Assembly (NCBI GenBank): GCA_009937605.1
Contig: JAACFG010000013.1
Span: 1 to 34,708, forward strand
Length of the DNA: 34,708 nt
DNA from: Gammaproteobacteria bacterium
GTDB lineage: Bacteria > Pseudomonadota > Gammaproteobacteria > Steroidobacterales > Woeseiaceae
Direction of reading: 5' to 3'
The notes beneath the pieces were generated by a model. That model was not told the origin of the DNA and did no database searches. It saw only the letters and a program-made list of their open reading frames with translations. The position numbers were made by a program, and so were the translations under genes. Positions 2-23,697 of the stretch are shown in pieces (positions within the stretch are counted from its first letter, which is position 1; the number at the start of each line of letters is the position of its first letter).

Positions 2-922
2 ATCGAGAGCCTCGCGGCGGTCTTCCTGCGCAACTTCCACCAGGCCTATGTCGCGGCCAAGGCGCAAGGCCTGCCGGAGGGCTACTACTACCCGTTGGTG
101 CATTGCGGCACGTCGTTCGGAAACTACAAGGAAGTCCGCGGCTACCTGATCCATTCGGCCAAGCTGCGCGACCGCGTCAGGACGATCCTGGGCAAGCTCG
201 GCCGCCTCGTTGATGGCAAGTTGCTGATCCCGGAAGAGGTCGTGCACTACTCCGAGTGGGTACACGTGATGCGTGATCGCATCAAGGAACATCAGGTCAT
301 CGACTGCAGCAATATCCGTGCGACCGTGCACCCGGCCTGTCACGTCTACAAGATGGTTCCTGAAGATGCCATCTACGACGACGACATTCTCGAGGGCAAC
401 CGCGTTGCGGTAACGACCGGCATCCTGGAGACGCTGGGCACACAGGTCATCGACTACTCGACCTGGTACGACTGCTGCGGCTTCGGTTTCCGTCACATTA
501 TTTCCGAGCGCGAGTTCACGCGTTCATTTGCCATCGATCGAAAATTGCGAGTGGCCCAGGAAGAGGCGCGCGCCGACATGATGGTCGGCCATGATACGGG
601 CTGCATAACGACGCTCGACAAGAACCAGTGGATTGGCGCGGCTGCGGGCAAGCCTGTTGAATTGCCGGTGTTAGCAGACATCCAGTTTGCGGCCCTGGTT
701 TGCGGCGCACACCCGTACAAAATCGTCCAGTCGCACTGGCACGCATCGCCGACTGAGAAGTTGATGGACAAGCTCGGCATTGACTGGCAGGCGAAAAAAG
801 CAGAGTTCGAGTCCTACCTCAAGGACGTGGAAGCGGGCAAGGGCGAAACCCTTTATGACCCGCGTTTGATGATTACGTCGGGACCTGGTTACAAAGCCGT
901 CGAATCGAAACCCGGTGAATAA
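2..922 (+). CDS. shdrB1: sHdrB1, heterodisulfide-reductase-like subunit B (5' end outside window)
   Basis: The reading frame is open from base 2, so the start lies left of the window; about 306 residues are visible. It is an HdrB-type CCG-domain protein, which in the sHdr complex is expected to handle disulfide or persulfide chemistry in the cytoplasm. The C-terminal CCG domain shows a Cys at 338-340 (ACHVYKM), a Cys pair at 473-478 (YDCCGF) and a Cys at 602-604 (TGCITT). Aligned by eye with the second HdrB at 3644, both CxxC elements are incomplete: the first reads C-G-T-S (Cys at 104-106) and the last keeps only its second Cys. It is followed 27 nt later by hdrA. The order B1-A-H-C2-B2 matches the type I shdr clusters of sulfur oxidisers. 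Calling it B1 rests on position plus this degenerate motif. Confidence 0.88.
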   Translation: MESLAAVFLRNFHQAYVAAKAQGLPEGYYYPLVHCGTSFGNYKEVRGYLIHSAKLRDRVRTILGKLGRLVDGKLLIPEEVVHYSEWVHVMRDRIKEHQVIDCSNIRATVHPACHVYKMVPEDAIYDDDILEGNRVAVTTGILETLGTQVIDYSTWYDCCGFGFRHIISEREFTRSFAIDRKLRVAQEEARADMMVGHDTGCITTLDKNQWIGAAAGKPVELPVLADIQFAALVCGAHPYKIVQSHWHASPTEKLMDKLGIDWQAKKAEFESYLKDVEAGKGETLYDPRLMITSGPGYKAVESKPGE

Positions 923-949
923 GAGCCAAAAAAGATAGGCACGCAAACA

Positions 950-1993
950 ATGAGTAAACCAGTATTGATAGTTGGCGGCGGACCGGCAGGTCTGGCCGCA
1001 GCGCACAGTCTTGCCACCGTAGGCAAGGAATGTGTCCTCGTCGAGAAAGAAGACAGGCTTGGTGGCGCACCGATTCTTTCGGGCTACGCGAAGCTGGTCC
1101 CAACAGGTGAGTGGGCCAAGGATGCCATTGGCGGCATGGTCAAGCGTGTCGAAGACGAGGCCGCGGTGAAGATCGTAACGGGCGCCAAGGTGGACAGCTT
1201 CGATGGCACGCCGGGGAATTTCACCGCGAAATTATCAAACGGCGATTCCGTCGATGCTGAAGCGGTCATCATGTGCAGCGGCTTTACGCATTTCGATTCC
1301 GTGAATAAACCCGAGTGGGGATTCGGCACGTACGAAGACGTTGTTACGACGACGCAGGTCGAGCAGATGATCTCGTCGGGTAATGGTGTGCGTTGTCCGT
1401 CGGATGGTCGCAAACCGAATCGCGTCGCGATTCTGTTGTGCGTAGGTTCGCGTGATCGCCAGATAGGTCGTGAATGGTGCTCGAAGATCTGCTGCACGGT
1501 TTCCTCGAACATCGCCATGGAAATTCGCGAAGAATTGCCTGATTGCCATGTCTACATCTACTACATGGACATCCGGACGTTTGGCCTGTACGAGACGAAG
1601 TACTACTGGAAAAGCCAGGAAGAATTCAAGGTCAAGTACATCAAGGCACGTATTGCCGAAGTGACGTCCGATGGCGAGAAACTCATCGTCAAGGGCGAAG
1701 ACACGCTCGTCAAACGCCCGATCACGATTCCGTTCGACATGGTCGTCCACGCCGTTGGCATGGATCCGAATGTCGAAAACCCGGAAATCGCGGAGACGTT
1801 CGGTATTGATCTCGAAACACACGGTTATATCGATGTCGCGAATCGTTACGGTTCGATAGGAGCGACCTCGCGCCCCGGTGTGTACGTCGCCGGTTCCGCG
1901 ACCGGTCCTGAGACGATCGACGATTCGATCACGCAGGGACACGCTGCCGCAATGGCCGTGCTGTCCGGCACCAAAGAACTGAAGTCGGCGTAG
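950..1993 (+). CDS. shdrA: sHdrA, FAD and [4Fe-4S] subunit of the sulfur-oxidising Hdr-like complex
   Basis: The protein has 347 residues. It opens with a beta strand and a dinucleotide-binding GGGPAG at residues 9-14, the FAD-binding Rossmann fold of HdrA proteins. The iron-sulfur motif is C164, C177, C181 and C182 (CVGSRDR...WCSKICC), as in HdrA. A second nucleotide-fold strand (VVHAVGMDP) sits near 265-273 and a C-terminal FAD element (GVYVAGSATGPETI) near 310-323. It lacks the extra ferredoxin and MvhD-linked domains of methanogen HdrA and is about the size of sHdrA of sulfur oxidisers. In that system it is the proposed electron-handling core that oxidises LbpA-bound sulfur with electrons passing to a still uncertain acceptor. 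The gap to the next gene is 13 nt or less, so this is operonic. Function is inferred from family and context. Confidence 0.92.
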   Translation: MSKPVLIVGGGPAGLAAAHSLATVGKECVLVEKEDRLGGAPILSGYAKLVPTGEWAKDAIGGMVKRVEDEAAVKIVTGAKVDSFDGTPGNFTAKLSNGDSVDAEAVIMCSGFTHFDSVNKPEWGFGTYEDVVTTTQVEQMISSGNGVRCPSDGRKPNRVAILLCVGSRDRQIGREWCSKICCTVSSNIAMEIREELPDCHVYIYYMDIRTFGLYETKYYWKSQEEFKVKYIKARIAEVTSDGEKLIVKGEDTLVKRPITIPFDMVVHAVGMDPNVENPEIAETFGIDLETHGYIDVANRYGSIGATSRPGVYVAGSATGPETIDDSITQGHAAAMAVLSGTKELKSA

Positions 1994-2006
1994 TACCGGC
2001 GTGCTA

Positions 2007-2852
2007 ATGGCCCGCAAATCCGCACTCCAGCCCCATGAGTTCGAGCGACCCGTACTCGACCTGTCTGGTGAGATGTTGCGCGTGGCATTGCAGGTCATGA
2101 TTGCGGGCACTGAAGATCAGGGTGGCGTTGAGCGCTACATCGATGCGGTCAAATTGAAAAGTGCCATGTTCAGACAGGCGCTCGTCGAGAACGATATTGC
2201 TGAACTGGACCTGGAGACATTCAAAGGTCTGTGCACGTTCATGGCGACGGTTCGCCGCCGTGTCAGTGAGTGGCTTAATGAAGATGCATTTGCGGTGATG
2301 CACCCGCGCATCGTCGAGCTGTTTAGCGACGATGACCACATCGAGAACCGGATCGGACGCTTCTGCGACTATTTCCCGAACGACAAGAAGCATCGCTGGG
2401 TGAAAGACCTTGCGACCGAGTTGCTGCACAACGCCGATCCCGAACGGGTGCCGCTAATGAACCGCTGGGTCTGGGACGCCAAGGCGAATACCGGTGTTAT
2501 TCGCGAGATCTGGCATGCCGAAAATGTGGATCACATCAAAATCCCGGTCGGCGATGGCTTTGGCACCTACATCATGCTGCGCGAGGAGTTGAGCCAGTTC
2601 CTGAGCGACAACGGCTTCTTCCGCGACGTCCTATTCTACGTCGATGTGCTCTGCGCCCAGGTGTACGCACAGTATATTTGCGAGCAGGGTGGCAGCTACC
2701 TGCGCGCAGACTTCACGGCACCGGAAGACCCGATGCAACACACACGTCGCCTGCTTGGACTCGATGGAGTGCAACCGGGAGATGGCAGAACCCGCCTCAA
2801 GTCTATCGACGGTGAGGCATTCGTCCTCGAAGACAGCAAGACGCTGAACTAG
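2007..2852 (+). CDS. sHdr cluster conserved protein of unknown function (Hyp / sHdrH)
   Basis: This 281-residue protein lies between hdrA and hdrC2, exactly where type I shdr clusters carry a gene usually called hyp or sHdrH. I recognise no catalytic domain, signal peptide or membrane segment. It is rich in charged helices with scattered Cys (GLCTF, RFCDYF, VLCAQ, YICEQ) that do not form a metal motif. Aromatic-acidic patches such as RWVWDAK and EIWHAENVDHIK stand out. A GTG at 2001 is in frame, but ATG 2007 is preferred because translation there begins MARKSAL; neither has a strong ribosome-binding site, and coupling to the hdrA stop at 1993 is likely. A structural or assembly role in the sHdr complex is a guess from neighbourhood only. 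Confidence 0.8.
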   Translation: MARKSALQPHEFERPVLDLSGEMLRVALQVMIAGTEDQGGVERYIDAVKLKSAMFRQALVENDIAELDLETFKGLCTFMATVRRRVSEWLNEDAFAVMHPRIVELFSDDDHIENRIGRFCDYFPNDKKHRWVKDLATELLHNADPERVPLMNRWVWDAKANTGVIREIWHAENVDHIKIPVGDGFGTYIMLREELSQFLSDNGFFRDVLFYVDVLCAQVYAQYICEQGGSYLRADFTAPEDPMQHTRRLLGLDGVQPGDGRTRLKSIDGEAFVLEDSKTLN

Positions 2853-2864
2853 ACGGAATACCCT

Positions 2865-3632
2865 ATGCCCATTCATGAAAAATCGCTGATTCGCCCCGAA
2901 AATCTGCAAACGCACGATGAATTGATTCTCGACGGTGTGGATGTTTCTGGCCACTGGAGCACCTTCATCGAAACGCGGGTCGTGAAGGACTACAACGAGA
3001 GCCTGGAGGAGGAGATTGCGGCTCTGCCGGGAGGTGAACAGATTCATCGCTGCTGGCAGTGTGGGTCCTGTACCAACTCCTGCACCGTGAATGCTCTCAA
3101 CCCGGACTTCAATCCGCGCTACTGGATCTACCTGATCCGCATGGGCATGGAATCCGAGTTGCTGCGGGACAAGGACATCATATGGCAATGCGTCTCCTGC
3201 AATAAGTGCACCTACGCTTGTCCGCGTGACGTGTTCCCGGAAGGTGTCATGAAGGCGACGTCACACTGGCTTGAGTTGAAAGGTCACACACCGAAATCGC
3301 CGTCGATGCACTTTGACGAAGTCTTCACAGAGCAGATCGTCAAGACCGGCAAGATCGAGGAAAGCCGTACTATTCGGCGTTTCTTCGCACGTACGGGCCA
3401 GGGCCTGATGCAGCCGTGGATGATCGAGATGGTCAAGCGGATGCTCCGCGGCTTGCCCGTCGGTTTGCTGGCGCGCATGGGACTGGCGACATTCGTCGCA
3501 CCGAAGACCAACGACTGGTCGAAAGCCTCTGCAGCGATCCAGGAATACATAGACGAACAACACGAGAAACAGGCGCAGGCGTTGACCCTTGCTGAGCTGG
3601 TTGAAACGGCCAAGCAGGACGTGGCTGCCTGA
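2865..3632 (+). CDS. shdrC2: sHdrC2, two-[4Fe-4S] ferredoxin-like electron-transfer subunit
   Basis: The protein has 255 residues. Two classical cubane motifs are visible: C63-C66-C69-C73 (CWQCGSCTNSC) and C109-C112-C115-C119-Pro (CVSCNKCTYACP). These are the hallmark of HdrC, which passes electrons between HdrA and HdrB. A helical C-terminal part follows, with no transmembrane segment, so the protein is soluble and cytoplasmic. An N-terminal extension of about 60 residues precedes the clusters. It starts 12 nt after the sHdrH stop and is followed 11 nt later by hdrB2 behind a GAGGAA ribosome-binding site. Named C2 because it directly precedes the second HdrB; the matching C1 would be expected upstream of the window edge. 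Confidence 0.92.
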   Translation: MPIHEKSLIRPENLQTHDELILDGVDVSGHWSTFIETRVVKDYNESLEEEIAALPGGEQIHRCWQCGSCTNSCTVNALNPDFNPRYWIYLIRMGMESELLRDKDIIWQCVSCNKCTYACPRDVFPEGVMKATSHWLELKGHTPKSPSMHFDEVFTEQIVKTGKIEESRTIRRFFARTGQGLMQPWMIEMVKRMLRGLPVGLLARMGLATFVAPKTNDWSKASAAIQEYIDEQHEKQAQALTLAELVETAKQDVAA

Positions 3633-3643
3633 CGAGGAATCGG

Positions 3644-4576
3644 ATGACTACGAAAGATAAATACAAGAAGGTCGCTTATTACCCGGGCTGCGCGCTCGAG
3701 GGAACCGGTCATTCTTACAATCGTTCCACGAAGGCTGTGGGCAAGAAGCTGGGTCTTGACCTTGTTGAGGTCAAGAACTGGAATTGCTGCGGTGCGATGG
3801 AAGTCAAGAACATCGATCCGAAGATCCAGACTTACTTGTCGTCTCGTGTCATGTCGACCGCGGCAAACGAAATGGACATGGATGTTGTGATGGCGCCGTG
3901 CAACGGCTGCTACCACAACCTCAAGAAGGCCGAGTATGACCTAAAGAATGACGAGGAGTCCGCTGAGGTCGTGGATCGCCTGTCGAAGAAAGCCGGGCAC
4001 AAAACCTACGAAGCCGGCCAGGTCGAGACGATTCATGCGCTGGACTGGATCAAGGATTCGATCGGCGAGGAAGGTCTGGCGGCGCGCGTCAAGAATTCGC
4101 TGAGCGGTATCAAGGTTGCCAACTACTACGGCTGCATGTACACGCGTCCGCGACATATCTTTCCCGAGAAGGACCAGGGGCCGGGCAGCGAATCGACGTC
4201 CAAGCCGCATTTCATGGATGACCTGTTGGCAGCCGCAGGCGCCGAGAACGTCGATTTTCCATTGAAAACGGCTTGCTGTGGCGGTGCGCACACGCTCTCC
4301 GACAGCGACACGTCCACGAAGCTCGTTCTGAATATTCTCAAGGCTGCGAAACTCTCTGGCGCGGATGTAATCGCAACGGAGTGCCCAACATGCCATTCGG
4401 GCCTGGAGATGCATCAGATTCGCGCAGAGAAGACGCTCGGTGAAAAGGTCGATATCAAGATCCTGTATTTCACGCAGCTACTGGGTATGGCACTTGGCCT
4501 CAGCCCGCGAAAGGTCGGCGTACACGAGAACATCAACGATTCGATAGCGTTCCTCAAGGAAAAAGGCCTCGGATGA
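3644..4576 (+). CDS. shdrB2: sHdrB2, heterodisulfide-reductase-like subunit with two complete CCG domains
   Basis: The protein has 310 residues and two full cysteine-rich CCG domains. Domain 1 has C16, C48-C49 and C86/C89; domain 2 has C164, C211-C212 and C247/C250. In HdrB proteins these bind non-cubane [4Fe-4S] clusters that cleave or form disulfides, and the same chemistry is proposed for the sHdr complex acting on sulfur carried by LbpA. The intact motifs contrast with the degenerate ones in HdrB1 at the left edge, so catalysis may sit here. Its TGA overlaps the next ATG (ATGA at 4573-4576), indicating translational coupling to the unknown 147-aa gene. Confidence 0.93.
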   Translation: MTTKDKYKKVAYYPGCALEGTGHSYNRSTKAVGKKLGLDLVEVKNWNCCGAMEVKNIDPKIQTYLSSRVMSTAANEMDMDVVMAPCNGCYHNLKKAEYDLKNDEESAEVVDRLSKKAGHKTYEAGQVETIHALDWIKDSIGEEGLAARVKNSLSGIKVANYYGCMYTRPRHIFPEKDQGPGSESTSKPHFMDDLLAAAGAENVDFPLKTACCGGAHTLSDSDTSTKLVLNILKAAKLSGADVIATECPTCHSGLEMHQIRAEKTLGEKVDIKILYFTQLLGMALGLSPRKVGVHENINDSIAFLKEKGLG

Positions 4577-5016
4577 GGTCCCTCGCGGAACTCGAAGCCG
4601 TCTTCGACTCACCTCTGCCAACGCCGGATATACAGGCGGCAGCAGAAAACCTGCTGAAGGCCAGCGAGGAAGTACTCGAACACTGGGTCACTGCGCGCGG
4701 GGAAGTACCTACCACCGATACGCGTGAAGGTTTTCGCCTTCTGGCGTTACACAGGCAAGGCGCGAAGGGCGATCCAAGCTTCAATGCCTGCCGGGAAACG
4801 AGCCGCGAGATCGCGTATCACTTCAATCTTGTAACGCTGGAGCCCGAACATTCGGATATTACGGATCGCTTATATATGATGGCTTTGGTATCCAAGCACC
4901 TGTATTTATTTGTAAGCGGGAAACTGGAGGTCGCAGGACTCGGCGAGTTCTGCTGCGCCGCGAAGCCGATTCGCTCGGCAATGGACAACGACTCAACCAC
5001 ACGAGAGGAGGCATAG
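4573..5016 (+). CDS. Unidentified 147-aa protein coupled to hdrB2 and lbpA
   Basis: I do not recognise this protein. It is mainly helical, soluble, without signal peptide or membrane span. Possible ligand or redox residues are H60, C73, H83, H93, H109 and a vicinal C127-C128 pair near the C-terminus. Segments with the most conserved look are FNACRETSREI (about 70-80) and KLEVAGLGEFCC (about 117-128). Its start overlaps the hdrB2 stop by four bases and its stop is two bases before lbpA, so it is translated as part of the sHdr-LbpA unit. A role in sulfur transfer to LbpA, complex assembly or cofactor insertion is possible, but nothing in the sequence proves any of these. Confidence 0.85.
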   Translation: MRSLAELEAVFDSPLPTPDIQAAAENLLKASEEVLEHWVTARGEVPTTDTREGFRLLALHRQGAKGDPSFNACRETSREIAYHFNLVTLEPEHSDITDRLYMMALVSKHLYLFVSGKLEVAGLGEFCCAAKPIRSAMDNDSTTREEA

Positions 5017-5018
5017 GT

Positions 5019-5462
5019 ATGCCATCTGTAAGGGGATGTAACCTTCCTGACGATTTGCTGTATGACGTCGACAACCATATCTGGTTCACAGAGATGGGCG
5101 ACGGCACGGTCAAGATTGGTATGACAACTGTCGCGACTGCGATGGCCGGAAAACTCGTTGCCTACACTCCGAAGAAAGTGGGCCGTAGCGTTCGCGCCGG
5201 TAAGTCTTGCGGCACGCTGGAGTCTGGCAAATGGGTCGGGCCTGCCAAGTCGGCGGCTGGCGGCGAAGTGGTTGCCGTGAACGACGATCTCGTAGCCGAG
5301 CCGAGTATTGCCAACGACGACCCTTACGAAAAGGGCTGGCTCGCCATCCTGAAACCCGACGACTGGGATACGGTGAAAGGTGGCCTGGTTCCTGGCAGCG
5401 ATGTCACGGGGCCGTACGAGGCCAAGATGGACTCTGAAGGTTTCGGCGGTTGCGGCGAGTGA
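5019..5462 (+). CDS. lbpA: LbpA, lipoate-binding GcvH-like sulfur carrier
   Basis: The protein has 147 residues and a GcvH-like lipoyl domain. The lipoylated lysine is expected at K71 in the context LESGKWVGPAKS, where glycine-cleavage H proteins read ESVKA. The N-terminal HIWFTEMGDGTVKIGMT and the central EPSIANDDPYEKGWLAIL are also H-protein-like. LbpA proteins of sHdr clusters carry sulfur intermediates for the sHdr complex instead of serving glycine cleavage; no gcvP, gcvT or gcvA is nearby, which supports that reading. The ribosome-binding site AGAGGAGG (5004-5011) is strong, placing the start at ATG 5019. A Gly-rich tail ending GGCGE carries an extra cysteine. Dedicated lipoate assembly genes (sLpl, LipS1/S2) are not in the visible part. 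Confidence 0.92.
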   Translation: MPSVRGCNLPDDLLYDVDNHIWFTEMGDGTVKIGMTTVATAMAGKLVAYTPKKVGRSVRAGKSCGTLESGKWVGPAKSAAGGEVVAVNDDLVAEPSIANDDPYEKGWLAILKPDDWDTVKGGLVPGSDVTGPYEAKMDSEGFGGCGE

Positions 5463-5464
5463 CT

Positions 5465-5806
5465 ATGACGGTCGTCGATTCGGGGCAGGACATTGAGAAA
5501 CTCGGTGAGTTGCATGATATGGCATCGCACGCGGTCGAGTTGCTCAAAGCCATGGCTAACGAGTGGCGGCTGATGATCCTCTGTCAATTGGCAGAGGGCG
5601 AAAAGACGGTCAGTGAGCTACAGGAAATTCTCGGGCTGAGCCAGTCGGCGCTGTCTCAGCATCTTGCCGTTCTGCGGCGAGAAAAAATTGTTAAGTCCAG
5701 GAAGCAGGCGCAGTCGGTAACGTATTCGTTGGCCGGTGACGAAGCTCCCAAGGTAATGAACACATTACACGAAGTATTCTGCGAGACGCAGGGAGATAAA
5801 AAATGA
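5465..5806 (+). CDS. shdrR: ArsR-family repressor, SqrR/BigR/sHdrR-type sulfane-sulfur sensor
   Basis: The protein has 113 residues and a winged helix-turn-helix of the ArsR type (TVSELQEILGLSQSALSQHL at about 49-68, then the wing KSRKQAQSVTYSL). Two cysteines, C40 in alpha-2 (MILCQL) and C106 near the C-terminus (VFCET), are 66 residues apart. These positions and spacing match the redox pair that forms a persulfide or polysulfide bridge in SqrR, BigR and sHdrR. The arsenic-site CxC motif of ArsR itself is absent. By family it should repress until sulfane sulfur is present. TTG 5450 and GTG 5459 are in frame upstream; ATG 5465 gives the length of related repressors. It sits immediately after lbpA and overlaps the next gene by ATGA. 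Confidence 0.85.
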   Translation: MTVVDSGQDIEKLGELHDMASHAVELLKAMANEWRLMILCQLAEGEKTVSELQEILGLSQSALSQHLAVLRREKIVKSRKQAQSVTYSLAGDEAPKVMNTLHEVFCETQGDKK

Positions 5807-7263
5807 ATAGTAATACAAGAAAGGTCACAGCGGCGCTGCTGGCCACGGGCTTGTTCGCCTTCAGCAGTGCGGCTCTGGCGACCAACGGATATTTCACGCA
5901 CGGTGTGGGAACTGAGTCGAAGGCCATGGGCGGTTCCGGTGTTGGCTCCAGCCAAAATATGGGCGCGATTGGTGTGGCCACCAATCCGGCACTGGCCGTG
6001 TTCTCGGATGAGAAGTGGCAGGTCGGCTTGTCTATCTTCAGCCCGATGCGCTCCTACACAACTACGGGCGGTTTGGGCGGTCAGCAAGGCGCGTTTTCGC
6101 TTAGCAATGGCACCTACGATAGTGCGAACGAAGCGTTCCCGATCCCGTACGTCGGTAAGAACTGGAAATTTGATAATGGCGGTGCACTCTCGCTCGTCTT
6201 CTACGGCCGCGGTGGCATGAACACGGAGTGGGACAGCGGACAGTCGGCCTTCTTCGACCCATTCCCGGGTAATTCCCTAAGCCCGGGTACTATTGAGAGT
6301 CCCGGATTGTACGGCGGCGGCAAAGCCGGCGTCGACCTGATGCAGGCGTTCCTGAACGTCAACTATTCGGGCAAGATTGGTGACAGCTTCGCCTGGGGAC
6401 TCGGTCCGGTCGTGGCCGTGCAGATGTTCGAGGCAACCGGTCTGGCTAACTTCGCTGGCTTTACGGAGACATTCGCCAACGCATTCCCCGGCTACTTCGG
6501 CTCCTGCCTGCAGGCGGGTGCCACCCAGGACGAGTGCCAGATCGCGGCGACGGGCCAGGCGGCGAGTGAGGTGACGAGTCTGACAAACAATAGTAGCGAC
6601 ACGTCCGTTGGCTATGGCGTGTCGGCCGGTGTCTGGTTCGGCAACGACACCGTCAGCTTCGGCCTGGCGTACCAGTCAAAGATGGAAATGGAAGAGTTCG
6701 CGGATTATTCGGACCTGTTCGCCCAGGATGGCGGTTTCGACATTCCTTCGACGCTCAAGGCGGGACTATCGTTCAAGACCAGCGATTCCGTGACCCTGAA
6801 TTTTGACGTAGAGCAGATTGGTTACAGCGATGTCGACTCAGTTGCTAACCCAATCGCGAACCTGCTGACAGGTTGCTACACCGCGAATCCGGCAGTTTCG
6901 CCCGAGTCGAGCGGCTGCCTGGGCGGTGATAACGGTGCCGGCTTTGGCTGGGAAGATATGACCGTCTACAAAGTGGGCGTCGCGGTGCAGTCGAGCGATA
7001 CGAGTACCTGGCGTTTCGGTTACAGCTACGGTGAACAGCCGATCCCGAGCAGCGAAGTACTCTTCAATATCCTTGCGCCAGGTGTCATGGAACAACACAT
7101 CACGCTCGGTTGGACCGGTGTGCGCCCGAACGGCAACATTATGTCCTTCTCATTCATGTACGCGCCTGAGACCACAGTCACGGGGGCCAGCACGTTTGAT
7201 CCGTTCCAGACAATTGAGCTCAAGATGACCCAGCTCGATCTCGAGTTCGCGTATCGATTCTAG
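5803..7263 (+). CDS. FadL/OmpP1/TodX-family outer-membrane transport protein
   Basis: The protein has 486 residues. A cleavable signal peptide ends near ALA-T (about residue 27), followed by the FadL-type N-terminus with repeated small residues and NPA (ATNPALAVF). The body is beta-rich with alternating aromatics, and the last strand ends in FAYRF, an aromatic-terminated OMP insertion signal. Three internal loop cysteine pairs (SCLQAGATQDEC, GCYTAN and SSGCLGG) may form disulfides. Family members move hydrophobic substrates such as fatty acids or aromatics through a lateral opening. Its start overlaps the sHdrR-like repressor stop (ATGA), so it is coupled to the sulfur operon. Import of a hydrophobic sulfur compound or elemental sulfur is my inference; ordinary fatty-acid uptake remains possible. 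Confidence 0.88.
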   Translation: MNSNTRKVTAALLATGLFAFSSAALATNGYFTHGVGTESKAMGGSGVGSSQNMGAIGVATNPALAVFSDEKWQVGLSIFSPMRSYTTTGGLGGQQGAFSLSNGTYDSANEAFPIPYVGKNWKFDNGGALSLVFYGRGGMNTEWDSGQSAFFDPFPGNSLSPGTIESPGLYGGGKAGVDLMQAFLNVNYSGKIGDSFAWGLGPVVAVQMFEATGLANFAGFTETFANAFPGYFGSCLQAGATQDECQIAATGQAASEVTSLTNNSSDTSVGYGVSAGVWFGNDTVSFGLAYQSKMEMEEFADYSDLFAQDGGFDIPSTLKAGLSFKTSDSVTLNFDVEQIGYSDVDSVANPIANLLTGCYTANPAVSPESSGCLGGDNGAGFGWEDMTVYKVGVAVQSSDTSTWRFGYSYGEQPIPSSEVLFNILAPGVMEQHITLGWTGVRPNGNIMSFSFMYAPETTVTGASTFDPFQTIELKMTQLDLEFAYRF

Positions 7264-7275
7264 GAGCAGATGATC

Positions 7276-8301
7276 ATGGCCAGAATATGGATGGCCGTAA
7301 TCACGATTGCGGCGCTGTTATCAGCGCCGTCTTCGTTTGCGGCAGATGAGAAAATTGGTATCTTCGAAGTGATTCACGCGTCGTCGGTGTCGTTTGAGGA
7401 AACCACAGCGGCGGTAGATGCCGCCTTTGCATCGTCGGGACTCGTTCTGCACGCGGCACACGATGTCCGCGTGCCGGAGAACAAGCACCAGGCGAGGTTC
7501 TATGTGCTGACGTCGCCGGCGTACGCCGATGCGGCGAAAGACGAGTCACCCAGGACGATTTCGGCACAAATACTGCGCCTCGCAGTGTTCACGCACGGTG
7601 ACGAGCAAAAGACGTATATCAACATGGTGAACCCGGTGGCCTACGCCATGGTTTTCTATTCCCAATCGGATAATTACGATGCCATGGTGGCAGCGGCTGG
7701 AAACGCGGCGGACGAGATTAGAGCGCTCGTGGCTGCAGTTCCGGGTGAGGCAGAGTCGTTGCCGCAAAGCCCGATGCGTACGGAAAAACACTATCGCAAG
7801 TACAAGGGCGATGGACCGGCGAAGATGATGGCGAAGTGGCGCAACTACGAGAAAAGCCAGTTGCTGATCGAAGAGGATACAGCCGAGAATTTCGAGGCAG
7901 TGGTCGAGCGCGTGGCTACCGCGATTACGGACAGCGAGGTATCCGGACCTGACGCATCGACGGGTTGGGAACTGGTGGCCCAAATCCAGCTACGCGACGA
8001 TGCCGTATACCTTGGCATCACGAACCCGTTTATCGAAGATCGCATGGTGCGCATCAACTCACGGCATCGCAAAAGCGGTAAAAGCGATTTGTCGCCCTAT
8101 CCGGGCGTAGACCACGTTACGGCGCTGCCGACTGACGTTCTGATCCTGAAAGTCGACGACCAGACGTTGGTACTTCATTACGGTCAGATGTGGCGTATGC
8201 AATTGTTCTTCTGGGATTCCGGCTACAGGGCGTTTACGGCCAACATGGGCGTGCCCGGCGATATCGCGAAGTCGATTGAGCGGACAATCAAAGCCGAGTA
8301 G
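7276..8301 (+). CDS. Exported protein of unknown function, possibly DUF302-like
   Basis: The protein has about 341 residues, with a signal peptide ending near SSFA-ADEK, so it is periplasmic or exported. ATG 7276 lies nine bases after GGAG (7263-7266); ATG 7270 is in frame but closer. The N-terminal half (FEVIHASSVSFEETTAAVDAAF ... NPVAYAMVFY) has the alternating helix-strand pattern of DUF302-like domains, and a related pattern recurs towards the C-terminus (FEAVVERVATAI ... TNPFIEDRMV), suggesting two halves of the same fold. No cysteine is present, so direct thiol chemistry is unlikely. It begins six bases after the FadL-type channel and is the last gene before a hairpin, so it is probably the final member of the sulfur operon. 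The domain call is tentative. Confidence 0.8.
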   Translation: MARIWMAVITIAALLSAPSSFAADEKIGIFEVIHASSVSFEETTAAVDAAFASSGLVLHAAHDVRVPENKHQARFYVLTSPAYADAAKDESPRTISAQILRLAVFTHGDEQKTYINMVNPVAYAMVFYSQSDNYDAMVAAAGNAADEIRALVAAVPGEAESLPQSPMRTEKHYRKYKGDGPAKMMAKWRNYEKSQLLIEEDTAENFEAVVERVATAITDSEVSGPDASTGWELVAQIQLRDDAVYLGITNPFIEDRMVRINSRHRKSGKSDLSPYPGVDHVTALPTDVLILKVDDQTLVLHYGQMWRMQLFFWDSGYRAFTANMGVPGDIAKSIERTIKAE

Positions 8302-8321
8302 CGAAAAACAGGCATAATAAG

Positions 8322-8380
8322 CCGGGGTCGGTAAGCTTGCTGCAAGGTGGCGGGCTTACTCTCCCCGGTTTCGTTTATTT
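8322..8380 (+). terminator. Putative rho-independent terminator closing the sulfur operon
   Basis: CCGGGG (8322-8327) pairs with CCCCGG (8363-8368). The inner bases GTAAG and CTTAC also pair, leaving a small internal loop and a central TTGCTGCAA stem. The T-rich tract TTTCGTTTATTT follows at 8369-8380. It lies 20 nt after the exported protein and ends 20 nt before the PLP enzyme start. The same stretch may hold the promoter for the next gene; I see no convincing -35/-10 pair. Confidence 0.55.
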
Positions 8381-8400: not shown

Positions 8401-10107
8401 ATGAGCAAAGCAAAACTCGATCCCGCCTACCTGCGGCAGCAAATCGTCGGTGTCGATTCCACCTTCGAAACTCCGTTTGGCGAGAGGTTGATGGTTTACT
8501 GCGATTACACAGCATCGGGACGTTGCCTGCGCTTCGTCGAAGCCTACCTGCAGAGTCTGCAACGTGTTTACGCGAATACGCACACCGAAGATGATATTAC
8601 GGGTCGCAGCATGAGCCAGTTGCTGCATGAGGCTGAGGAAGCGATCAAGGAGTCTGTTAACGCAGGACCACAGGGCAGGATTATCGCGTGTGGTACAGGC
8701 GCAACCGGCGCCATCGACAAATTGCAGCAGATTATTGGCGTGACGTTGCCACCGGCAACCCGCAGGAATCTGGGTGACATGCTTGACGATACGCGTCTGC
8801 GGGAAACTCAACCCGTCGTATTCATCGGCCCGTACGAACATCACTCGAACGAACTATCCTGGCGCCAGTCGCTGGTGACAACGGTACAGGTACGAATGGA
8901 TGCGACCGGTCACGTCGATCTCGCGCATCTTGAAGAGCTGCTGCAGGATTCCCGGTATCAGAACCGCAAGCTGATCGGCTCCTTTTCGGCGGCCTCGAAC
9001 GTCACGGGTATTCGGTCTGACGTTCGCAAGATCACGAACCTGCTGCACAAGTACGGCGCGATCGCCTGTTTTGACTATGCAGCATGCGCTCCGTACGTCG
9101 ATATCGACATGAACCCCGAGCCGGAGTTCGAGGGTGAGGATCCGAGTATCGACGCGATCTTTATTTCGCCGCACAAGTTCCTGGGCGGTCCCGGTTCCAG
9201 TGGTGTGCTGGTATTCAATGAGCGCATCTACGATCGTCAATTGCCGCCAAGCGTGAGTGCCGGTGGCACCGTCGATTACGTGGGAATGACCGACCAGGAC
9301 TTTATCGGCCGTATCGAAGAACGCGAAAAAGCGGGTACACCTGGCGTGCTGCAGACATTAAAGGCTGGCCTCGTTTTTCAGGTCAAGGACGCGGTTGGTG
9401 TTGAGCTGATTCACAAGCGCGAACTGGAGTTCACACGCCGCGCGCTAAGAAGCTGGGGTGAGAATGAGCGCATTGAAGTACTCGGCAACCCGGATCCGGG
9501 AAGCCGGGTGGGGATCATTTCTTTCAATATTCGAGATGTAAGCGGCAAGTACCTGCATCACAAGTTCCTGACCGTTTTGCTCAATGATCTGTTCGGCATC
9601 CAGTCGCGAGCCGGATGCTCCTGCGCGGGACCGTACGGGCATCGCCTGCTGGATATTGACGACGATACGTCTGAGAAGTATCGCTCGGCCGTACAGGAGG
9701 GGTATTGCGGTCTGAAGCCCGGCTGGTGCCGTGTCGGACTGCACTGGGTCATGGACGATGCAGAGGCAAACTACGTCATAGACGCGGTACATTTCCTGGC
9801 ACGCGCAGGTCATGTATTCCTGAATCTGTACGATTTCGACCTCGAAACCGGAACCTGGTCGCACAAGTACGCGTCTGGAGAGTTGCAGCGTTTTTCACTC
9901 GACGCCGCACTCTCGCTGACCGAGGGCGAACCGGCAACCCTGGGTTTGGCTCTGCGCGAACAGTTGTACCGCCATTACCTGGCGGAGGCGGAGAAACTCG
10001 CCGAACAATTGCGCAGTGAACCCGAAGTGAAGCTAGCGTCGCTGAGTGGCAAGCTCGCAGACCTGCAATTTTTCTCGATGCCGGACGACGAGCGTCAGCC
10101 TCACTAG
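8401..10107 (+). CDS. Class V aminotransferase-fold enzyme, cysteine desulfurase-like, with long C-terminal region
   Basis: From ATG 8401 the protein has 568 residues. Family features are GPYEHHSN (143-150), the PLP-ring aspartate D225 in FDYAACAPY, the Schiff-base lysine K259 in SPHKFLGG, and EKAGTPGVLQ (309-318). SRAGCSCAGPYG (402-413) places Cys406/Cys408 where SufS/CsdA carry the persulfide-forming cysteine. A C-terminal part of about 150 residues exceeds the roughly 400-residue desulfurases. An upstream in-frame GTG at 8347 would add 18 residues overlapping the hairpin and is unlikely. It could release sulfur from cysteine or act on another amino acid; the nearness of the sHdr operon makes a sulfur role attractive but unproven. 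Confidence 0.85.
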   Translation: MSKAKLDPAYLRQQIVGVDSTFETPFGERLMVYCDYTASGRCLRFVEAYLQSLQRVYANTHTEDDITGRSMSQLLHEAEEAIKESVNAGPQGRIIACGTGATGAIDKLQQIIGVTLPPATRRNLGDMLDDTRLRETQPVVFIGPYEHHSNELSWRQSLVTTVQVRMDATGHVDLAHLEELLQDSRYQNRKLIGSFSAASNVTGIRSDVRKITNLLHKYGAIACFDYAACAPYVDIDMNPEPEFEGEDPSIDAIFISPHKFLGGPGSSGVLVFNERIYDRQLPPSVSAGGTVDYVGMTDQDFIGRIEEREKAGTPGVLQTLKAGLVFQVKDAVGVELIHKRELEFTRRALRSWGENERIEVLGNPDPGSRVGIISFNIRDVSGKYLHHKFLTVLLNDLFGIQSRAGCSCAGPYGHRLLDIDDDTSEKYRSAVQEGYCGLKPGWCRVGLHWVMDDAEANYVIDAVHFLARAGHVFLNLYDFDLETGTWSHKYASGELQRFSLDAALSLTEGEPATLGLALREQLYRHYLAEAEKLAEQLRSEPEVKLASLSGKLADLQFFSMPDDERQPH

Positions 10108-10135: not shown

Positions 10136-10534
10136 TTAGTTGTTCTTCGCGCCCTGGTCGATCCACAGACCGATCGTTTCTATCTGGTTGGCCGACAGCA
10201 TGACACCGCGACCTTCGGCGAAGGACTCGTCGTTGTGTGGTGGCATCCGGATTTCCGGAGCGGTCTTGCCTGCGACGACCAGGTAGATAGAGCTGGACAT
10301 CCTGCTGCCCGGAACGACTACCGGCCCGAATGTCGTTCCCTTCATTACGCTGTCGTAGTCGGTCATTACATAGGCGCTGGATGTGGCGCCCTCGCCGGTA
10401 CCACTGTGGCAATTGATGCAGCTCTTGGCGAAGATTGGCTGGATATCGCCTTCGAAGCTGACCTGGCCCTGACCACACCCGGCGAGAATTAAGGCCGTTG
10501 TCATCAATATAAAGCCGCGGAGTATTCTGCTCAT
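10136..10534 (-). CDS. Small c-type cytochrome lipoprotein
   Basis: The protein has 132 residues, starting at the ATG at 10534 behind GAGGTGAG, a good ribosome-binding site; a longer in-frame start at 10612 would bury the signal sequence. The N-terminal hydrophobic stretch ends in the lipobox LAGC (17-20), so Cys20 is lipidated; Gly at +2 instead of Asp suggests sorting to the outer membrane. One haem site C39-I-N-C42-H43 is present, and M97 in RMPPH is the likely axial ligand. The layout GDIQPIFAKSCINCH resembles planctomycete-type (PSCyt1-like) single-haem domains. It converges on the PLP enzyme (28 nt between stops) and lies downstream of the peptidase gene on the same strand. Its redox partner is unknown. 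Confidence 0.87.
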   Translation of the reverse strand: MSRILRGFILMTTALILAGCGQGQVSFEGDIQPIFAKSCINCHSGTGEGATSSAYVMTDYDSVMKGTTFGPVVVPGSRMSSSIYLVVAGKTAPEIRMPPHNDESFAEGRGVMLSANQIETIGLWIDQGAKNN

Positions 10535-10608
10535 TACGCTCACCTCGTCGACGTCCTGGGGGGAGTAGTCACATGCCAGGAAACTATCCGCCCGGAGGGC
10601 AAGCTCGG

Positions 10609-11511
10609 TCAATGCGTGGATGTACGCACGGCAAAAATCTCGTCCCTGACAACGTCACTTCGCAGGGCATCTTCGAAATCCGGGAAACCGGCGGTATTCG
10701 CATACTGGCGATAGAGCGGCATAAATACGGGATCTTCGATGAGTGAGTCGAACTTGGTGAAAAGCTCCGTACCAGACCAACTCCGTCGGGACGGAAGGCA
10801 GCAGCGCTGGAAGCGATCCAGCACGGTATCCAGAGATTCGGTGCCGCTGCTTCGTTCGCGGAGCTCCACGTCGGCCAGCAATGCAATCGCGGCGCCGCTC
10901 CAGTAGATCTTGTAGCGCGCCCGGCGTACTCCTTCGCGCGCAGCATCGTTCAACGACAATTCGGGGCGCGATCCTCGGCCTCGGCCAAAGCCCTGCGTGA
11001 GTTTCTCGATGGCCTGGTTCGTCGTGTAATTGCCGGCACGAGCCATGAGAACGTTCTGGTAATAGCTGGCGAATCCTTCGGAGATCCATTTTTGTTGCCA
11101 GCTTATGCGCGGCAGCAGCAGATGACTGAATTCATGGGTTGCCGTCCAGTCGGCTGAGAGATCGGCAAGCGGACGCCCTACATCCACATACAACTCGACC
11201 GTTTCGCCACCACCGCGGGTGACACGACCGAATGGTACCGCTGAATCGCCGCCCCAACGACCACCTTCGCTCGGTACTACGACAACGCGCGGTTCCGGCA
11301 CCGGGAAACGTCCGTAGGCGAGCAAAACCTGTCCGGCACTTTCACTGACCCAGCGTTTCAGCTTGGCAGTATTCTCCTGATCGACCGATCCCCTGATCTC
11401 CAGGTCAATGCTCGCCCCGGGGATATTGATAACGGATGACGGAACAGTCGCGTCAGCTGACAGCGCAAGGAGGGCCGCAGCCGAGATCAGCAAGAGGGCA
11501 GGTGAGCGCAT
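10609..11511 (-). CDS. Secreted gluzincin-like (peptidase MA-type) protein
   Basis: The protein has 300 residues, with a signal peptide ending near residues 20-22. The zinc motif H126-E-F-S-H130 followed by E145 in WISEGFASYYQ is the HExxH...E arrangement of gluzincins, with the 'second' Glu in the usual SEGxAxY context. The rest of the protein is helical, as in M1-like or peptidase_MA families. It is predicted to act in the periplasm or outside the cell on peptides or proteins; the substrate is unknown. The cytochrome lipoprotein starts 74 nt downstream on the same strand, so the two may be co-transcribed. Confidence 0.82.
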   Translation of the reverse strand: MRSPALLLISAAALLALSADATVPSSVINIPGASIDLEIRGSVDQENTAKLKRWVSESAGQVLLAYGRFPVPEPRVVVVPSEGGRWGGDSAVPFGRVTRGGGETVELYVDVGRPLADLSADWTATHEFSHLLLPRISWQQKWISEGFASYYQNVLMARAGNYTTNQAIEKLTQGFGRGRGSRPELSLNDAAREGVRRARYKIYWSGAAIALLADVELRERSSGTESLDTVLDRFQRCCLPSRRSWSGTELFTKFDSLIEDPVFMPLYRQYANTAGFPDFEDALRSDVVRDEIFAVRTSTH

Positions 11512-19020: not shown

Positions 19021-19719
19021 ATGAGTATGCCCGCAGAAAAAATCCTGATCATCGAAGACGAACAGGCCATTCGTGAGATGATCGCGTTCCACCTGTCTCG
19101 CGCAGGCTATGAGACGTTCGAGGCGGCGGACTGCCGCGAGGCGAGGCACTTGCTGACCGACAATCGGCCGGACCTGGCGCTCGTCGACTGGATGCTTCCC
19201 GATATCAGTGGTCTCGAACTCACTCGCCAGCTCAAGCGCGAAAAGGAGTACGAAGACCTTGCGATTATCATGTTGACCGCACGCGCCGAGGAACGGGACA
19301 AAGTGTCGGGTCTCGAGGGCGGTGCAGACGACTACATCACCAAGCCGTTCTCACCGCGTGAATTACTTGCGCGAATCCAGGCCGTCTTGCGCCGACTCAA
19401 CGTATCCGCAACCGAAGTTGTGAGTTCGGGCGTGCTCGAACTCGACATGACGGGCCATCGGGTCCTGGCTGGCGGGAATGAAATCAAGCTTGGTCCGACC
19501 GAGTATCGCCTTCTTCACTTCTTGATGACGCACTCCGAGCGTGTTTACAGCCGGGCACAACTGCTCGATCGTGTCTGGGGTGCCAACGTCTATGTAGAGG
19601 AGCGCACGGTCGACGTGCATGTGCGCAGATTGCGCAAGGCCCTGACCGACGCAAGCGCTGATCGTTATATCCAGACCGTCCGTGGGGCAGGCTACAGATT
19701 CTCGACCCGCGATGTCTGA
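19021..19719 (+). CDS. phoB: Phosphate regulon response regulator PhoB
   Basis: The protein has 232 residues. The receiver domain carries the acidic pocket E12/D13, phosphoacceptor D56 (LVDWMLPD), the Thr in IIMLTAR, and the lysine in YITKPFSP. A C-terminal OmpR-type winged helix follows (GPTEYRLLHFLMTHSERVYS ... RTVDVHVRRLRKAL ... VRGAGYRFS), matching PhoB closely in the recognition helix. ATG 19021 gives MSMPAEKIL; ATG 19027 is possible. It activates Pho regulon promoters under phosphate limitation. The stop lies eight bases inside phoR, and Pho pathway genes follow. Confidence 0.95.
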   Translation: MSMPAEKILIIEDEQAIREMIAFHLSRAGYETFEAADCREARHLLTDNRPDLALVDWMLPDISGLELTRQLKREKEYEDLAIIMLTARAEERDKVSGLEGGADDYITKPFSPRELLARIQAVLRRLNVSATEVVSSGVLELDMTGHRVLAGGNEIKLGPTEYRLLHFLMTHSERVYSRAQLLDRVWGANVYVEERTVDVHVRRLRKALTDASADRYIQTVRGAGYRFSTRDV

Positions 19720-21016
19720 CGCCGCCAGGAAATTTCTATTGGGAATCGTCCTGTTCCTCATTGCAGGGGCGCTGGTCGGAGGCATTTACGGTTATGCCGT
19801 AATCGGCCTGATGGTTGCCGCGCTTCTTGCGCTGGTGTGGCAGGTAAGGCAGCTGCTGAGTTTCGACCGCGCACTGCGCACCGGAAACTTCGATGACTTT
19901 CGTTATGGCGATGGAATCTGGGAGCAACTGTTCTCTCGCTTTCGCTACGAGAACGACAAGTCCCAGCGACGCAAACAGGAATACCGCCGGTTGCTCAAGG
20001 AAATTCGCAAATCGACCAACGCGATGCCGGATGGCGCCGTAATTCTGAACGCCGACAACGAGATAATCACCTGCAATCGCGCGGCCAAGGGGCTTGCGGG
20101 ACTCAAACGCAAGAAGGACCTCGGGCAAAGAGTCGACAATATTCTCCGAGATCCGGAACTCGTCGGCCTGCTGCACGCGAAAGATCAATCAGCCAGTATC
20201 GAGATCCCATCGCCCGTCGTCGATGGCAACTGGCTGAACTGCCGGGTGGTGCGGTACGGCGCCGACCAGAAACTCCTGCTGCTGCGCGATGTGACAGAGC
20301 GTATCCAGTTGAGCAAGATGCGCCGCGACTTCGTAGCTAATGCATCGCATGAACTGCGTTCACCATTGACAGTCATCAGCGGTTACCTCGACGCGCTATC
20401 CGACGACGACCAGATGCCATCGACATGGGCCAAGCCTGTGTCGCAGATGCGGGTCCAGGGGAAACGCATGCGCCATATTCTGGGAGAGTTGCTGGAGTTG
20501 TCGCGCCTTGAGAGTGCCGGGAAAGCGGAGTCCGACCAGACGGTCGATGTCGTCGATCTGCTGAATAAGGCGAAGCAGGCGTATGAAGGGCACGCACAGG
20601 TTGCGTCGATAGTGGTCCGCGAGGAGTCCAGCGCCGGGCTCAATAGCATTCCGGCGGAAATCGAGACGGTTATCGTGAACCTGCTTTCAAACGCGGTCCG
20701 ATTCACTCCGAACGACGGCGAAATTACGTTGGCCTGGCGCTCGGGTGCCGATGGCGCAGACCTCGTCGTCAGCGATACCGGAGAAGGCATCGATCCCGAG
20801 TTCATTCCCCGGCTCACGGAGCGCTTCTTTCGTATCGACAAAGGCCGCAGTCGCGAGGCCGGCGGGACCGGCCTGGGCCTTGCCATCGTAAAACACGTGC
20901 TGGCTCGCCATAACGCGGAGCTGCTGATTTCCAGCGAGCCGGGCGAGGGTAGCGAATTTCGGTGTCACTTCCCCGCGGAGCGTGTCGTCGTTTCGCCGCC
21001 TTCGCTTCTGTCATAA
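19712..21016 (+). CDS. phoR: Phosphate regulon sensor histidine kinase PhoR
   Basis: The protein has 434 residues from ATG 19712, overlapping phoB by eight bases. Two adjacent membrane helices (about 8-47) with almost no periplasmic loop are typical of PhoR. A PAS domain follows (about 100-195), then the dimerisation/phosphoacceptor helix with H213 in NASHELRSPLT, and the ATPase domain with the N box (VNLLSNAVRFTPND), DTGEGI and GGTGLGLAIVKH. It phosphorylates PhoB when the Pst transporter and PhoU report low phosphate. The stop TAA overlaps the first Pho half-site of the next promoter. Confidence 0.95.
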   Translation: MSDAARKFLLGIVLFLIAGALVGGIYGYAVIGLMVAALLALVWQVRQLLSFDRALRTGNFDDFRYGDGIWEQLFSRFRYENDKSQRRKQEYRRLLKEIRKSTNAMPDGAVILNADNEIITCNRAAKGLAGLKRKKDLGQRVDNILRDPELVGLLHAKDQSASIEIPSPVVDGNWLNCRVVRYGADQKLLLLRDVTERIQLSKMRRDFVANASHELRSPLTVISGYLDALSDDDQMPSTWAKPVSQMRVQGKRMRHILGELLELSRLESAGKAESDQTVDVVDLLNKAKQAYEGHAQVASIVVREESSAGLNSIPAEIETVIVNLLSNAVRFTPNDGEITLAWRSGADGADLVVSDTGEGIDPEFIPRLTERFFRIDKGRSREAGGTGLGLAIVKHVLARHNAELLISSEPGEGSEFRCHFPAERVVVSPPSLLS

Positions 21017-21047
21017 AACGGCAACATTCCTGTCATATCGTCGGCAC
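21008..21047 (+). promoter_or_regulatory. Strong multi-unit Pho box upstream of the porin-phoU unit
   Basis: Four 7-bp units lie in an exact 11-bp register: CTGTCAT (21008-21014), CGGCAAC (21019-21025), CTGTCAT (21030-21036) and TCGGCAC (21041-21047), with four-base spacers AAAA, ATTC and ATCG. Two are perfect PhoB half-sites. The first overlaps the end of phoR. A TATGAC (21072-21077) may serve as -10. This is the best regulatory site in the window. Confidence 0.75.
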
Positions 21048-21100
21048 CTGACGCGGCAGTCAGACCGCCAATATGACTCCCAACAAGGGGCGAGCAAACA

Positions 21101-22387: not shown

Positions 22388-22420
22388 CCTTCCGACCACA
22401 CATTTGAGCGAAGTATCATC

Positions 22421-23131
22421 ATGGAAGCATCCGGATTGACAGACCACATTTCACGTCGGTTTAACAAGGACATCGAGGACCTGCGTAACAATGTCCTGAC
22501 AATGGGTGGACTGGTCGAGTCGCAATTGTCTCTGGCCATCACCGCGATCGTCACTGGTGATAGTGCGCTCGGGCTCCAGGTTGCAGAGGACGACTACAAG
22601 GTCAATAACCTCGAGGTTAATATCGACGAAGAGTGTGGGCGCATCCTCGCGACGCGTGCGCCAGCGGCGGGCGACCTGAGACTGATCGTTGCGATTATCA
22701 AGACGATTACGGATCTCGAGCGGATTGGTGACGAAGCCGAGAAGATCGGCTTCCTCGCCTCGAAACTGGCGGCCATGGATCGGCCATCGGATTCCTATCG
22801 CGAGCTCAAGACGCTGGGCCAGCACGTCGCCCACATGGTGCGTGACGCGATGAATGCGTTCGCGCGTCTCGATGTCGAGGATGCCTGGGAAGTCGTCCGC
22901 GAAGACGAGCGCGTCGATGAGGAGTACGAGGCGATCCAGCGGCAGGGCATTACGCACATGATGGAGGATCCGAGGTCCATCAAGCGTGTCATGAACGTCA
23001 CCTGGTGCGCTCGGTCGCTGGAGCGAATTGGTGACCATGCCAAGAATATTTGCGAGTACGTGATCTATATGGTGCAGGGCAGGGATGTGCGTCATACTGC
23101 GATTCCTGATGCACCGGAAACCGACTCGTAA
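22421..23131 (+). CDS. phoU: Phosphate signalling protein PhoU
   Basis: The protein has 236 residues. It has two three-helix bundles with the duplicated acidic metal-binding motif: E/D-rich DLERIGDEAEKIGF (about 107-120) and its second copy SLERIGDHAKNICEYV (about 201-216). The N-terminal HISRRFNKDIEDLRNNVLTMGGLVE is typical. PhoU links the Pst transporter to PhoR and represses the Pho response when phosphate is ample. Here it is apart from pstSCAB, 33 nt after the porin and under the same likely Pho promoter. Confidence 0.96.
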   Translation: MEASGLTDHISRRFNKDIEDLRNNVLTMGGLVESQLSLAITAIVTGDSALGLQVAEDDYKVNNLEVNIDEECGRILATRAPAAGDLRLIVAIIKTITDLERIGDEAEKIGFLASKLAAMDRPSDSYRELKTLGQHVAHMVRDAMNAFARLDVEDAWEVVREDERVDEEYEAIQRQGITHMMEDPRSIKRVMNVTWCARSLERIGDHAKNICEYVIYMVQGRDVRHTAIPDAPETDS

Positions 23132-23134
23132 GCA

Positions 23135-23632: not shown

Positions 23633-23697
23633 GAGCGCGCTCCCCGTTCGGGGACAATGCTTGCGCGATACGATTCGCCCGCAAGGCAGACTCCTAC
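23629..23697. repeat. Inverted pair of REP-like elements between dsbB and dapE
   Basis: GTAGGAGCGCGC (23629-23640) faces its inverted counterpart CTCCTAC (23691-23697). Between them lie a perfect TCCCCG-TT-CGGGGA hairpin (23641-23654) and a stem of CTTGCG with CGCAAG. The unit fills the gap between two convergent genes, and its ends supply the TAG stops of both dsbB and dapE. A related GTAGGAGCGCGC arm occurs after pstB. It probably also ends transcription from both sides. Confidence 0.7.

Follow-up and report, generated by a model that had tools for sequence, protein, structure and literature searches.

Why does a sulfur-oxidation operon of the sHdr-LbpA type continue into genes for a regulator, an outer-membrane channel and an exported protein? 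The question is raised by a stretch of 34,708 nucleotides (nt) from a marine-sediment gammaproteobacterium of the Woeseiaceae (GenBank assembly GCA_009937605.1, contig JAACFG010000013.1). This stretch, referred to as the window, is the entire contig C133 of a 3.12 Mb genome that is 86.6% complete. An earlier, sequence-only reading described in it a complete-looking, self-contained sHdr-LbpA unit running from substrate entry to oxidation. At this locus, the 3′ portion of a Woeseiaceae type I sHdr-LbpA operon is joined to an envelope module, which consists of a FadL/TodX-type channel (FadL) and an exported protein (EXP) and follows an ArsR-family repressor (ArsR). The FadL-EXP extension is not accidental, and the channel and its partner stay with the sulfur-oxidation genes of several pathways, which is wider than the original finding. 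Such pairs of a TodX-like channel and an EXP-like protein probably serve sulfur oxidation.

Recurrence of the channel and its partner beside sulfur genes

Class, order and family denote here the groupings of the genome sample, with f1 being the family of the window and f10 and f15 two further families. In the order sample of 296 genomes, sHdrB2 is present in 38 (28 in f1, 9 in f10 and 1 in f15) and EXP in 26, every one of them in f1. Three of the 28 f1 genomes (G208, G216, G278) are excluded, since their contigs stop before FadL could show, and the remaining 25 uncut loci comprise 24 checked by tblastn and the window itself. The order B2-147 amino acid gene-LbpA-ArsR-FadL is retained in all 25, and EXP directly follows FadL in 18. 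The recurrence of lbpA-arsR-fadL-exported protein foreseen by the sequence-only reading is thereby borne out, and, with an identical order in 24 related loci, the row is more than a product of chance. Wherever FadL and EXP are both present (26 loci), 2 to 40 nt separate them, and an ATGA overlap is found at the ArsR stop region in 10 of the 30 loci examined. A scan of GTDB contigs with EXP returns 31 loci, of which, by the titles taken from that scan, 30 belong to Woeseiaceae, Chromatiales or Gammaproteobacteria metagenome-assembled genomes and one to Sulfuricaulis.

The sHdr operon is not the only setting of these genes within the family. Of the 107 f1 genomes, 43 contain a FadL match (E <= 1e-5). 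Inside the sHdr operon there are 26 (the 25 uncut loci and G305), and eight lie on short contigs with fragments of the row, e.g., FadL-EXP-SufS (G141, G172, G184, G262, G278, G308, G310, G311). In five, the row is MBL-ArsR-FadL and runs divergently to sox genes (G117, G258, G276, G296, G302), and in one genome (G212) the ArsR-FadL pair adjoins ETHE1 and SQR-rhodanese. The neighbouring genes were named by BLAST to proteins which had themselves been named from reading translations, some of them confirmed by Pfam scan. EXP without sHdr in view is found beside YeeE, SoxH-like, ETHE1 and TauE genes in three loci (L134, L135, L136), with SQR-rhodanese in two of them and sox genes in two. In the Sulfuricaulis locus (L139), sulfate adenylyltransferase-like and TauE-like genes, read from translations, lie 6–8 kilobases (kb) off, and beyond these no sulfur gene is recognised there.

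A related arrangement extends through the class sample of 369 genomes, in which the FadL profile A3 finds 88 genomes at the strict threshold of E <= 1e-50. Many of these distant FadL genes have a gene for an exported protein of about 300–360 amino acids directly downstream, and profile A4 (threshold E <= 1e-10) was built from 12 such proteins, none of which matches DUF302 in Pfam. The kinship of these EXP-like proteins with EXP has one profile comparison as its sole basis, in which 284 columns are aligned (probability 84, E 7.4e-6); the window EXP is too distant for A4 to detect. EXP-like genes are found by A4 in 85 of the 369 genomes and together with FadL in 55 (odds ratio 14.8, p 6e-22 without the own genus, kinship ignored). 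Adjacency is seen in 32 genomes, where the EXP-like gene lies downstream of FadL, on the same strand and at a distance of 71–580 nt between the matches.

Sulfur genes accompany the distant channels as well. The sox, dsrE2, lbpA, lplA, YeeE or hdr genes lie near 32 of the 60 distant FadL genes, and in four loci (L202, L207, L210, L238) lbpA and lplA stand upstream of the FadL-EXP-like pair. When the EXP-like gene is counted as a marker too, the count is 29 among the top 40 genes and 9 among the lower 20, compared with 0 of 20 control stretches, which the analyst placed at round coordinates in genomes from that set. The figure of 32 of 60 is the fairer count, because the marker queries included EXP-like proteins drawn from 12 of these loci. 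In a FadL tree of 75 rows, only 1 of 500 shuffles matches or exceeds the clustering of the sulfur label, which must change at least 11 times on starred branches. Among the 22 class-sample genomes with sHdrB2, 20 are outside the own genus, and 14 of these have an EXP-like gene (p 6e-6, kinship ignored). A FadL-family match at E <= 1e-5 is present in 19 of the 20, and in nine it lies 6–9 kb downstream of shdrB2 (searched within 12 kb) on the same strand (chance 1.6e-15, kinship ignored). The FadL-EXP-like pair occurs anywhere in the genome in 12 of the 20.

As a separate observation, a DsrE2-type protein is encoded near many distant FadL genes (L191, L193, L195-L197, L200, L201, L206, L207, L209-L212, L216-L219, L221, L222), with a DrsE_2 match in Pfam for the one that was scanned. 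FadL may therefore have a second usual partner.

The operon and its envelope proteins

Ten open reading frames, all on the + strand, span positions 2-8301 with intergenic gaps of -4 to 27 nt (Table 1). They include the ATGA overlap at ArsR/FadL, as the sequence-only reading had noticed, and a second one at B2/147 amino acid gene. Judging by this spacing, the row is probably transcribed as one unit. The sHdr set in the window is not complete: the contig edge truncates sHdrB1 to 306 of about 454 residues (454 in L041), and C1 is located on another contig of the same genome, C174. This contig carries lplA-GATase-dsrE-C1-B1(5′) in the same direction. The genome is considered to carry a type I sHdr-LbpA operon, because C174 and the window share an exact end overlap, the 94 nt at the end of C174 and at the start of the window being identical. 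The combined order is lplA-GATase-dsrE-C1-B1-A-H-C2-B2-147aa-lbpA-arsR-fadL-EXP, followed by a SufS-like gene. Type I sHdr is defined in PMC11582611 by the syntenic C1B1AHC2B2 cluster, which is present with C174 joined; the window itself lacks C1. The unit is not self-contained either, as C1, DsrE, LplA and GATase are encoded upstream outside the window and Pfam scan and neighbourhood maps reveal neither an SQR or Sox gene nor an inner-membrane importer of sulfur in the row. The sequence-only reading had nevertheless recognised a real unit, with a good guess at its envelope part.

Table 1. Features of the operon region in the window.
Feature	Position	Strand	Basis
sHdrB1, 5′-truncated at contig edge (no start codon)	2..922	+	CCG domain (Pfam)
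sHdrA, flavin adenine dinucleotide (FAD) oxidoreductase	950..1993	+	Pyr_redox_2 (Pfam); HdrA models score below cut-off
sHdrH, function unassigned	2001..2852	+	position between A and C2, recurs in relatives
sHdrC2, iron-sulfur protein	2865..3632	+	Fer4 domains (Pfam)
sHdrB2	3644..4576	+	two CCG domains (Pfam)
147 amino acid protein in the place of sHdrI	4573..5016	+	position between B2 and lbpA
LbpA, GcvH-like lipoate-binding carrier	5019..5462	+	GCV_H (Pfam)
ArsR-family repressor, two-cysteine sulfane-sulfur sensor type	5465..5806	+	HTH_5 (Pfam)
FadL/TodX-type outer-membrane channel	5803..7263	+	Toluene_X above cut-off (Pfam)
EXP, exported protein, DUF302-like fold	7270..8301	+	structure model
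Long RNA hairpin	about 8319..8369 (approximate limits)	+	z -4.35 vs shuffles
SufS-like class V aminotransferase	8401..10107 (ATG)	+	Aminotran_5 (Pfam); SufS matches in PDB

The nearest described system is the type I sHdr-LbpA of Hyphomicrobium denitrificans, for which PMC6067878 gives the order dsrE-C1-B1-A-hyp-C2-B2-hyp-lbpA, identical to the order found here from dsrE to lbpA. An ArsR regulator belongs to both systems (PMC12423496); in the operon of the window, however, it stands between lbpA and the genes for FadL and EXP. The H. denitrificans system includes the importer SoxT1A (PMC11582611), whereas no SoxT-like gene is mapped beside the operon of the window. By its position, the 147 amino acid gene would correspond to the second hyp gene, sHdrI. 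Its protein has no Pfam or NCBIfam match and the PDB sequence search is empty; the cysteines 73, 127 and 128 are conserved in 21 of 21 sequences. sHdrH likewise gives zero Pfam or NCBIfam matches. LbpA combines a GcvH-like domain and its lysine with a place beside hdr-like genes. This lysine, K71, which we take from GcvH to be the lipoyl site, is conserved in 28 of 28 sequences, and LbpA is predicted to be lipoylated.

FadL belongs to the FadL/TodX family both by Pfam (PF03349, Toluene_X, 48.3 bits with a cut-off of 29.7) and by its FadL-type barrel, and is predicted to transport a hydrophobic substrate. It is the sole Toluene_X match in this genome. Its profile retrieves TodX, CymD and TbuX among solved sequences, and the predicted model, of fair quality (mean predicted local distance difference test score, pLDDT, 65.9), matches TodX with Z 33.8 and, with Z 30.5, the FadL of E. 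coli (1t16). The closest solved relatives, of the TodX type, are channels for small hydrophobic molecules. The protein shares sequence family and fold with TodX, TbuX, CymD and FadL (Z 30 to 34), at 14–20% identity to the solved members in structural alignment. It differs from them in its sulfur-oxidation gene neighbours and in two invariant cysteines, C358 and C372, present in 36 of 36 family sequences.

The EXP model, made with AlphaFold2 from 32 sequences, has a mean pLDDT of 81.5. Residues 29-158 superpose on 1q9u with Z 12.3 (122 residues, 2.2 Å), and this first half also finds other DUF302 structures (7tj1 with Z 10.9, 1j3m with Z 10.6), the next row having Z 7.6. In the second half (196-343), the elements look similarly ordered by eye, and the structure search gives no DUF302 row. 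The Pfam scan of the window EXP gives no family match; the DUF302 model (PF03625) matches neither this protein nor its relatives, apart from 1 of 14 at E 0.021, and the PDB sequence search returns a single chance-like match (E 0.018). Formal membership in DUF302 is therefore rejected, and EXP is named by fold only. A role as persulfide carrier is held unlikely, given zero cysteines in the window EXP and 24 of 25 relatives and a single one in the remaining relative. DUF302 proteins are nevertheless known from sulfur loci: PMC5037610 places such a gene in sox clusters, with Thermithiobacillus among the hosts, and guesses at polythionate oxidation, and PMC11034169 places one between soxF and soxH in Sulfitobacter. 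EXP has the DUF302-like fold and the sulfur neighbourhood in common with these proteins. Unlike them, it comes after FadL and is unlisted as DUF302 in Pfam, and it has 343 amino acids, with a seeming second similar half, compared with 191 in the T. tepidarius protein.

The regulator combines the ArsR fold family with two cysteines that occupy the positions marking sulfane-sulfur sensors in PMC12423496. Both are conserved in 32 of 32 sequences, and the nearest solved sequences include HlyU, BigR and YgaV. From this kinship, ArsR would be a repressor released by sulfur, and the tetrasulfide bridge and DNA release that mark the sulfane-sulfur repressors would be expected of it. The first in-frame start of its gene is a TTG at 5450, with an ATG at 5465. 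The two conserved cysteines are shared with SqrR, BigR, SoxR and sHdrR; in contrast to these, the window ArsR sits within the shdr operon and falls below the NCBIfam BigR cut-off. Such two-cysteine regulators are described as rarely encoded near shdr genes in PMC12423496, and the membrane-protein targets listed there are cytoplasmic-membrane transporters and resistance-nodulation-division (RND) pumps.

Proposed mechanism and rival explanations

The arrangement suggests the following course of events. Cytoplasmic sulfane sulfur would link the two ArsR cysteines, leading to DNA release and induction of the operon, by analogy with SqrR, SoxR and sHdrR. The TodX-like FadL, placed by its family and fold, may then pass small, poorly water-soluble sulfur (S8, long polysulfanes) across the outer membrane. 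In the periplasm, EXP, with its DUF302-like fold, could bind the sulfur species or aid their hand-over, and an inner-membrane carrier encoded elsewhere would deliver the sulfur to DsrE. Finally, sHdr and LbpA would oxidise it to sulfite, a step which is established for Hyphomicrobium denitrificans. A sulfane-sulfur-controlled envelope module that moves hydrophobic sulfur species over the outer membrane by this mechanism has, in our judgement, an even chance of being the correct description. A broader proposal is possible and rather doubtful: that the FadL/TodX-type channel and its EXP-like partner form a general route for zero-valent sulfur through the outer membrane of gammaproteobacterial sulfur oxidisers, serving the sHdr, Sox and persulfide-dioxygenase pathways and, in Woeseiaceae, standing under a persulfide sensor in the sHdr operon.

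Several results weigh against the proposed mechanism. EXP is absent from 7 of the 25 uncut f1 loci (G006, G163, G166, G169, G202, G210, G224), which also tells against self-containment. No FadL is mapped in the nine f10 sHdr loci of the same order (one contig, L104, ends soon after B2), and therefore sHdr works without FadL; the neighbourhood maps of f1, f10 and f15 missed some open reading frames overlapped by longer ones, and the f1 counts come from tblastn. The f10 loci often have the ArsR gene after lbpA (the f15 contig stops at ArsR), so that the regulator is the wider feature in the order and the channel belongs to the family of the window. Across the class, no association of sHdr with FadL is seen at the strict threshold (5 of the 20 genomes outside the own genus, p 0.52), and the kinship-corrected test of EXP-like adjacency and other sulfur markers is not significant (7 pairs, median p 0.69). 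The sequence-only reading had named unrelated neighbours in close relatives as the point on which it could fail; most FadL and EXP genes without sHdr adjoin sulfur genes, but in 3 of the 43 f1 FadL genomes (G228, G301, G307) the visible stretch contains no sulfur marker. ArsR, lastly, is not classed as BigR, scoring 85.1 bits on the NCBIfam equivalog NF040642 with a cut-off of 155.

Other functions of the channel have to be considered. It may import volatile organosulfur, such as dimethylsulfide or methanethiol, the sulfur of which then enters sHdr, and the small hydrophobic molecules carried by TodX-type channels would fit such a role. In agreement with it, H. denitrificans produces its hdr-lbpA proteins on dimethylsulfide, and its lbpA mutant does not grow on this compound (PMC6067878). 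The same ArsR-FadL pair, however, stands at sox and ETHE1/SQR clusters, and no organosulfur enzyme is recognised in the maps, a weak argument since none was used as a query; we consider this import unlikely. The sox and ETHE1/SQR clusters, in which lbpA is not in view, argue in the same way against an uptake of fatty acids, octanoate or lipoate, e.g., for the loading of LbpA by the LplA-like ligase of the operon, as does the sulfur-sensor type of the regulator preceding FadL. Membership in the FadL family, the lplA gene within the operon and the finding of one Toluene_X gene in the genome speak for such uptake, which is judged less probable again than organosulfur import.

The direction of transport may also be the reverse, with the module exporting or detoxifying surplus sulfur species and EXP acting as a scavenger, in place of a supply to the pathway. 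To our knowledge, FadL-family channels studied so far work inward, and the module is placed within an operon for energy-yielding oxidation, both of which count against export. On the other hand, the EXP genes of L134-L136 have TauE-type exporters and ETHE1 nearby, and two-cysteine ArsR proteins control detoxification and efflux genes too (PMC12423496), so export is given the same small probability as organosulfur import. A general outer-membrane gene riding along in one lineage, with FadL-EXP as a chance-inherited neighbour, would agree with the relatedness of the family loci and with the outcome of the kinship-corrected pair test. It is the least probable of these explanations and a very improbable one, in view of the three kinds of sulfur neighbourhood within one family, the FadL-EXP-like adjacency in the class sample and the sulfur label that is clustered on the FadL tree yet changes multiple times.

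The preferred reading, a sulfur-controlled module with a channel for hydrophobic sulfur, concerns the passage of extracellular sulfur over the outer membrane, for which FadL and the EXP-like protein are testable candidates. The pair is adjacent in 32 of the 369 class-sample genomes, in many cases next to genes of sulfur oxidation, and the inducer can be predicted from the two regulator cysteines. PMC10045233 regards membrane proteins for S0 transport as unconfirmed in acidophilic or neutrophilic sulfur oxidisers and mentions that OprD porins have been put forward for the uptake of S0 in Sulfurovum. In marine sediment, the orders reported to carry sHdr and Sox include Woeseiales (PMC12345210). 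No link of FadL with sHdr or with Sox was found among the matches listed in open-licence full-text literature, a search which work in subscription journals may escape.

Genes and structures beyond the operon

Downstream of EXP, the long and highly stable hairpin may mark the end of the operon or act as an attenuator. Promoter and terminator scans bring no excess of sites over shuffled sequence, with 4 sites for a shuffle mean of 4.6 and 9 for 8.3, and the hairpin is unlisted there. The SufS-like gene comes next in 22 of the 27 mapped sHdr loci (in L090 at a distance). Measured from the first start in frame, the EXP-SufS gap in relatives ranges between -59 and 391 nt. As a fixed member of the unit it was rejected, because it is also found without sHdr in the stretches seen of seven mapped genomes (G105, G157, G178, G214, G244, G252, G282) and because the hairpin precedes it in the window. 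One of these genomes (G244, locus L158, about 8.5–10.7 kb) has an ArsR-like gene, 72% to the window ArsR, directly before the SufS-like gene, with no sHdr in view.

Convergent to the operon, on the minus strand at 10136-11511, lies a pair of genes for a small cytochrome c-like protein (PSCyt1) and an M61-peptidase-like exported protein, which is also kept in the nearest relatives. Further downstream, positions 19021-29753 resemble a phosphate regulon from reading the translations, with a response regulator, a sensor kinase, a porin-like and a PhoU-like protein, a binding protein, two permeases and an ATPase.

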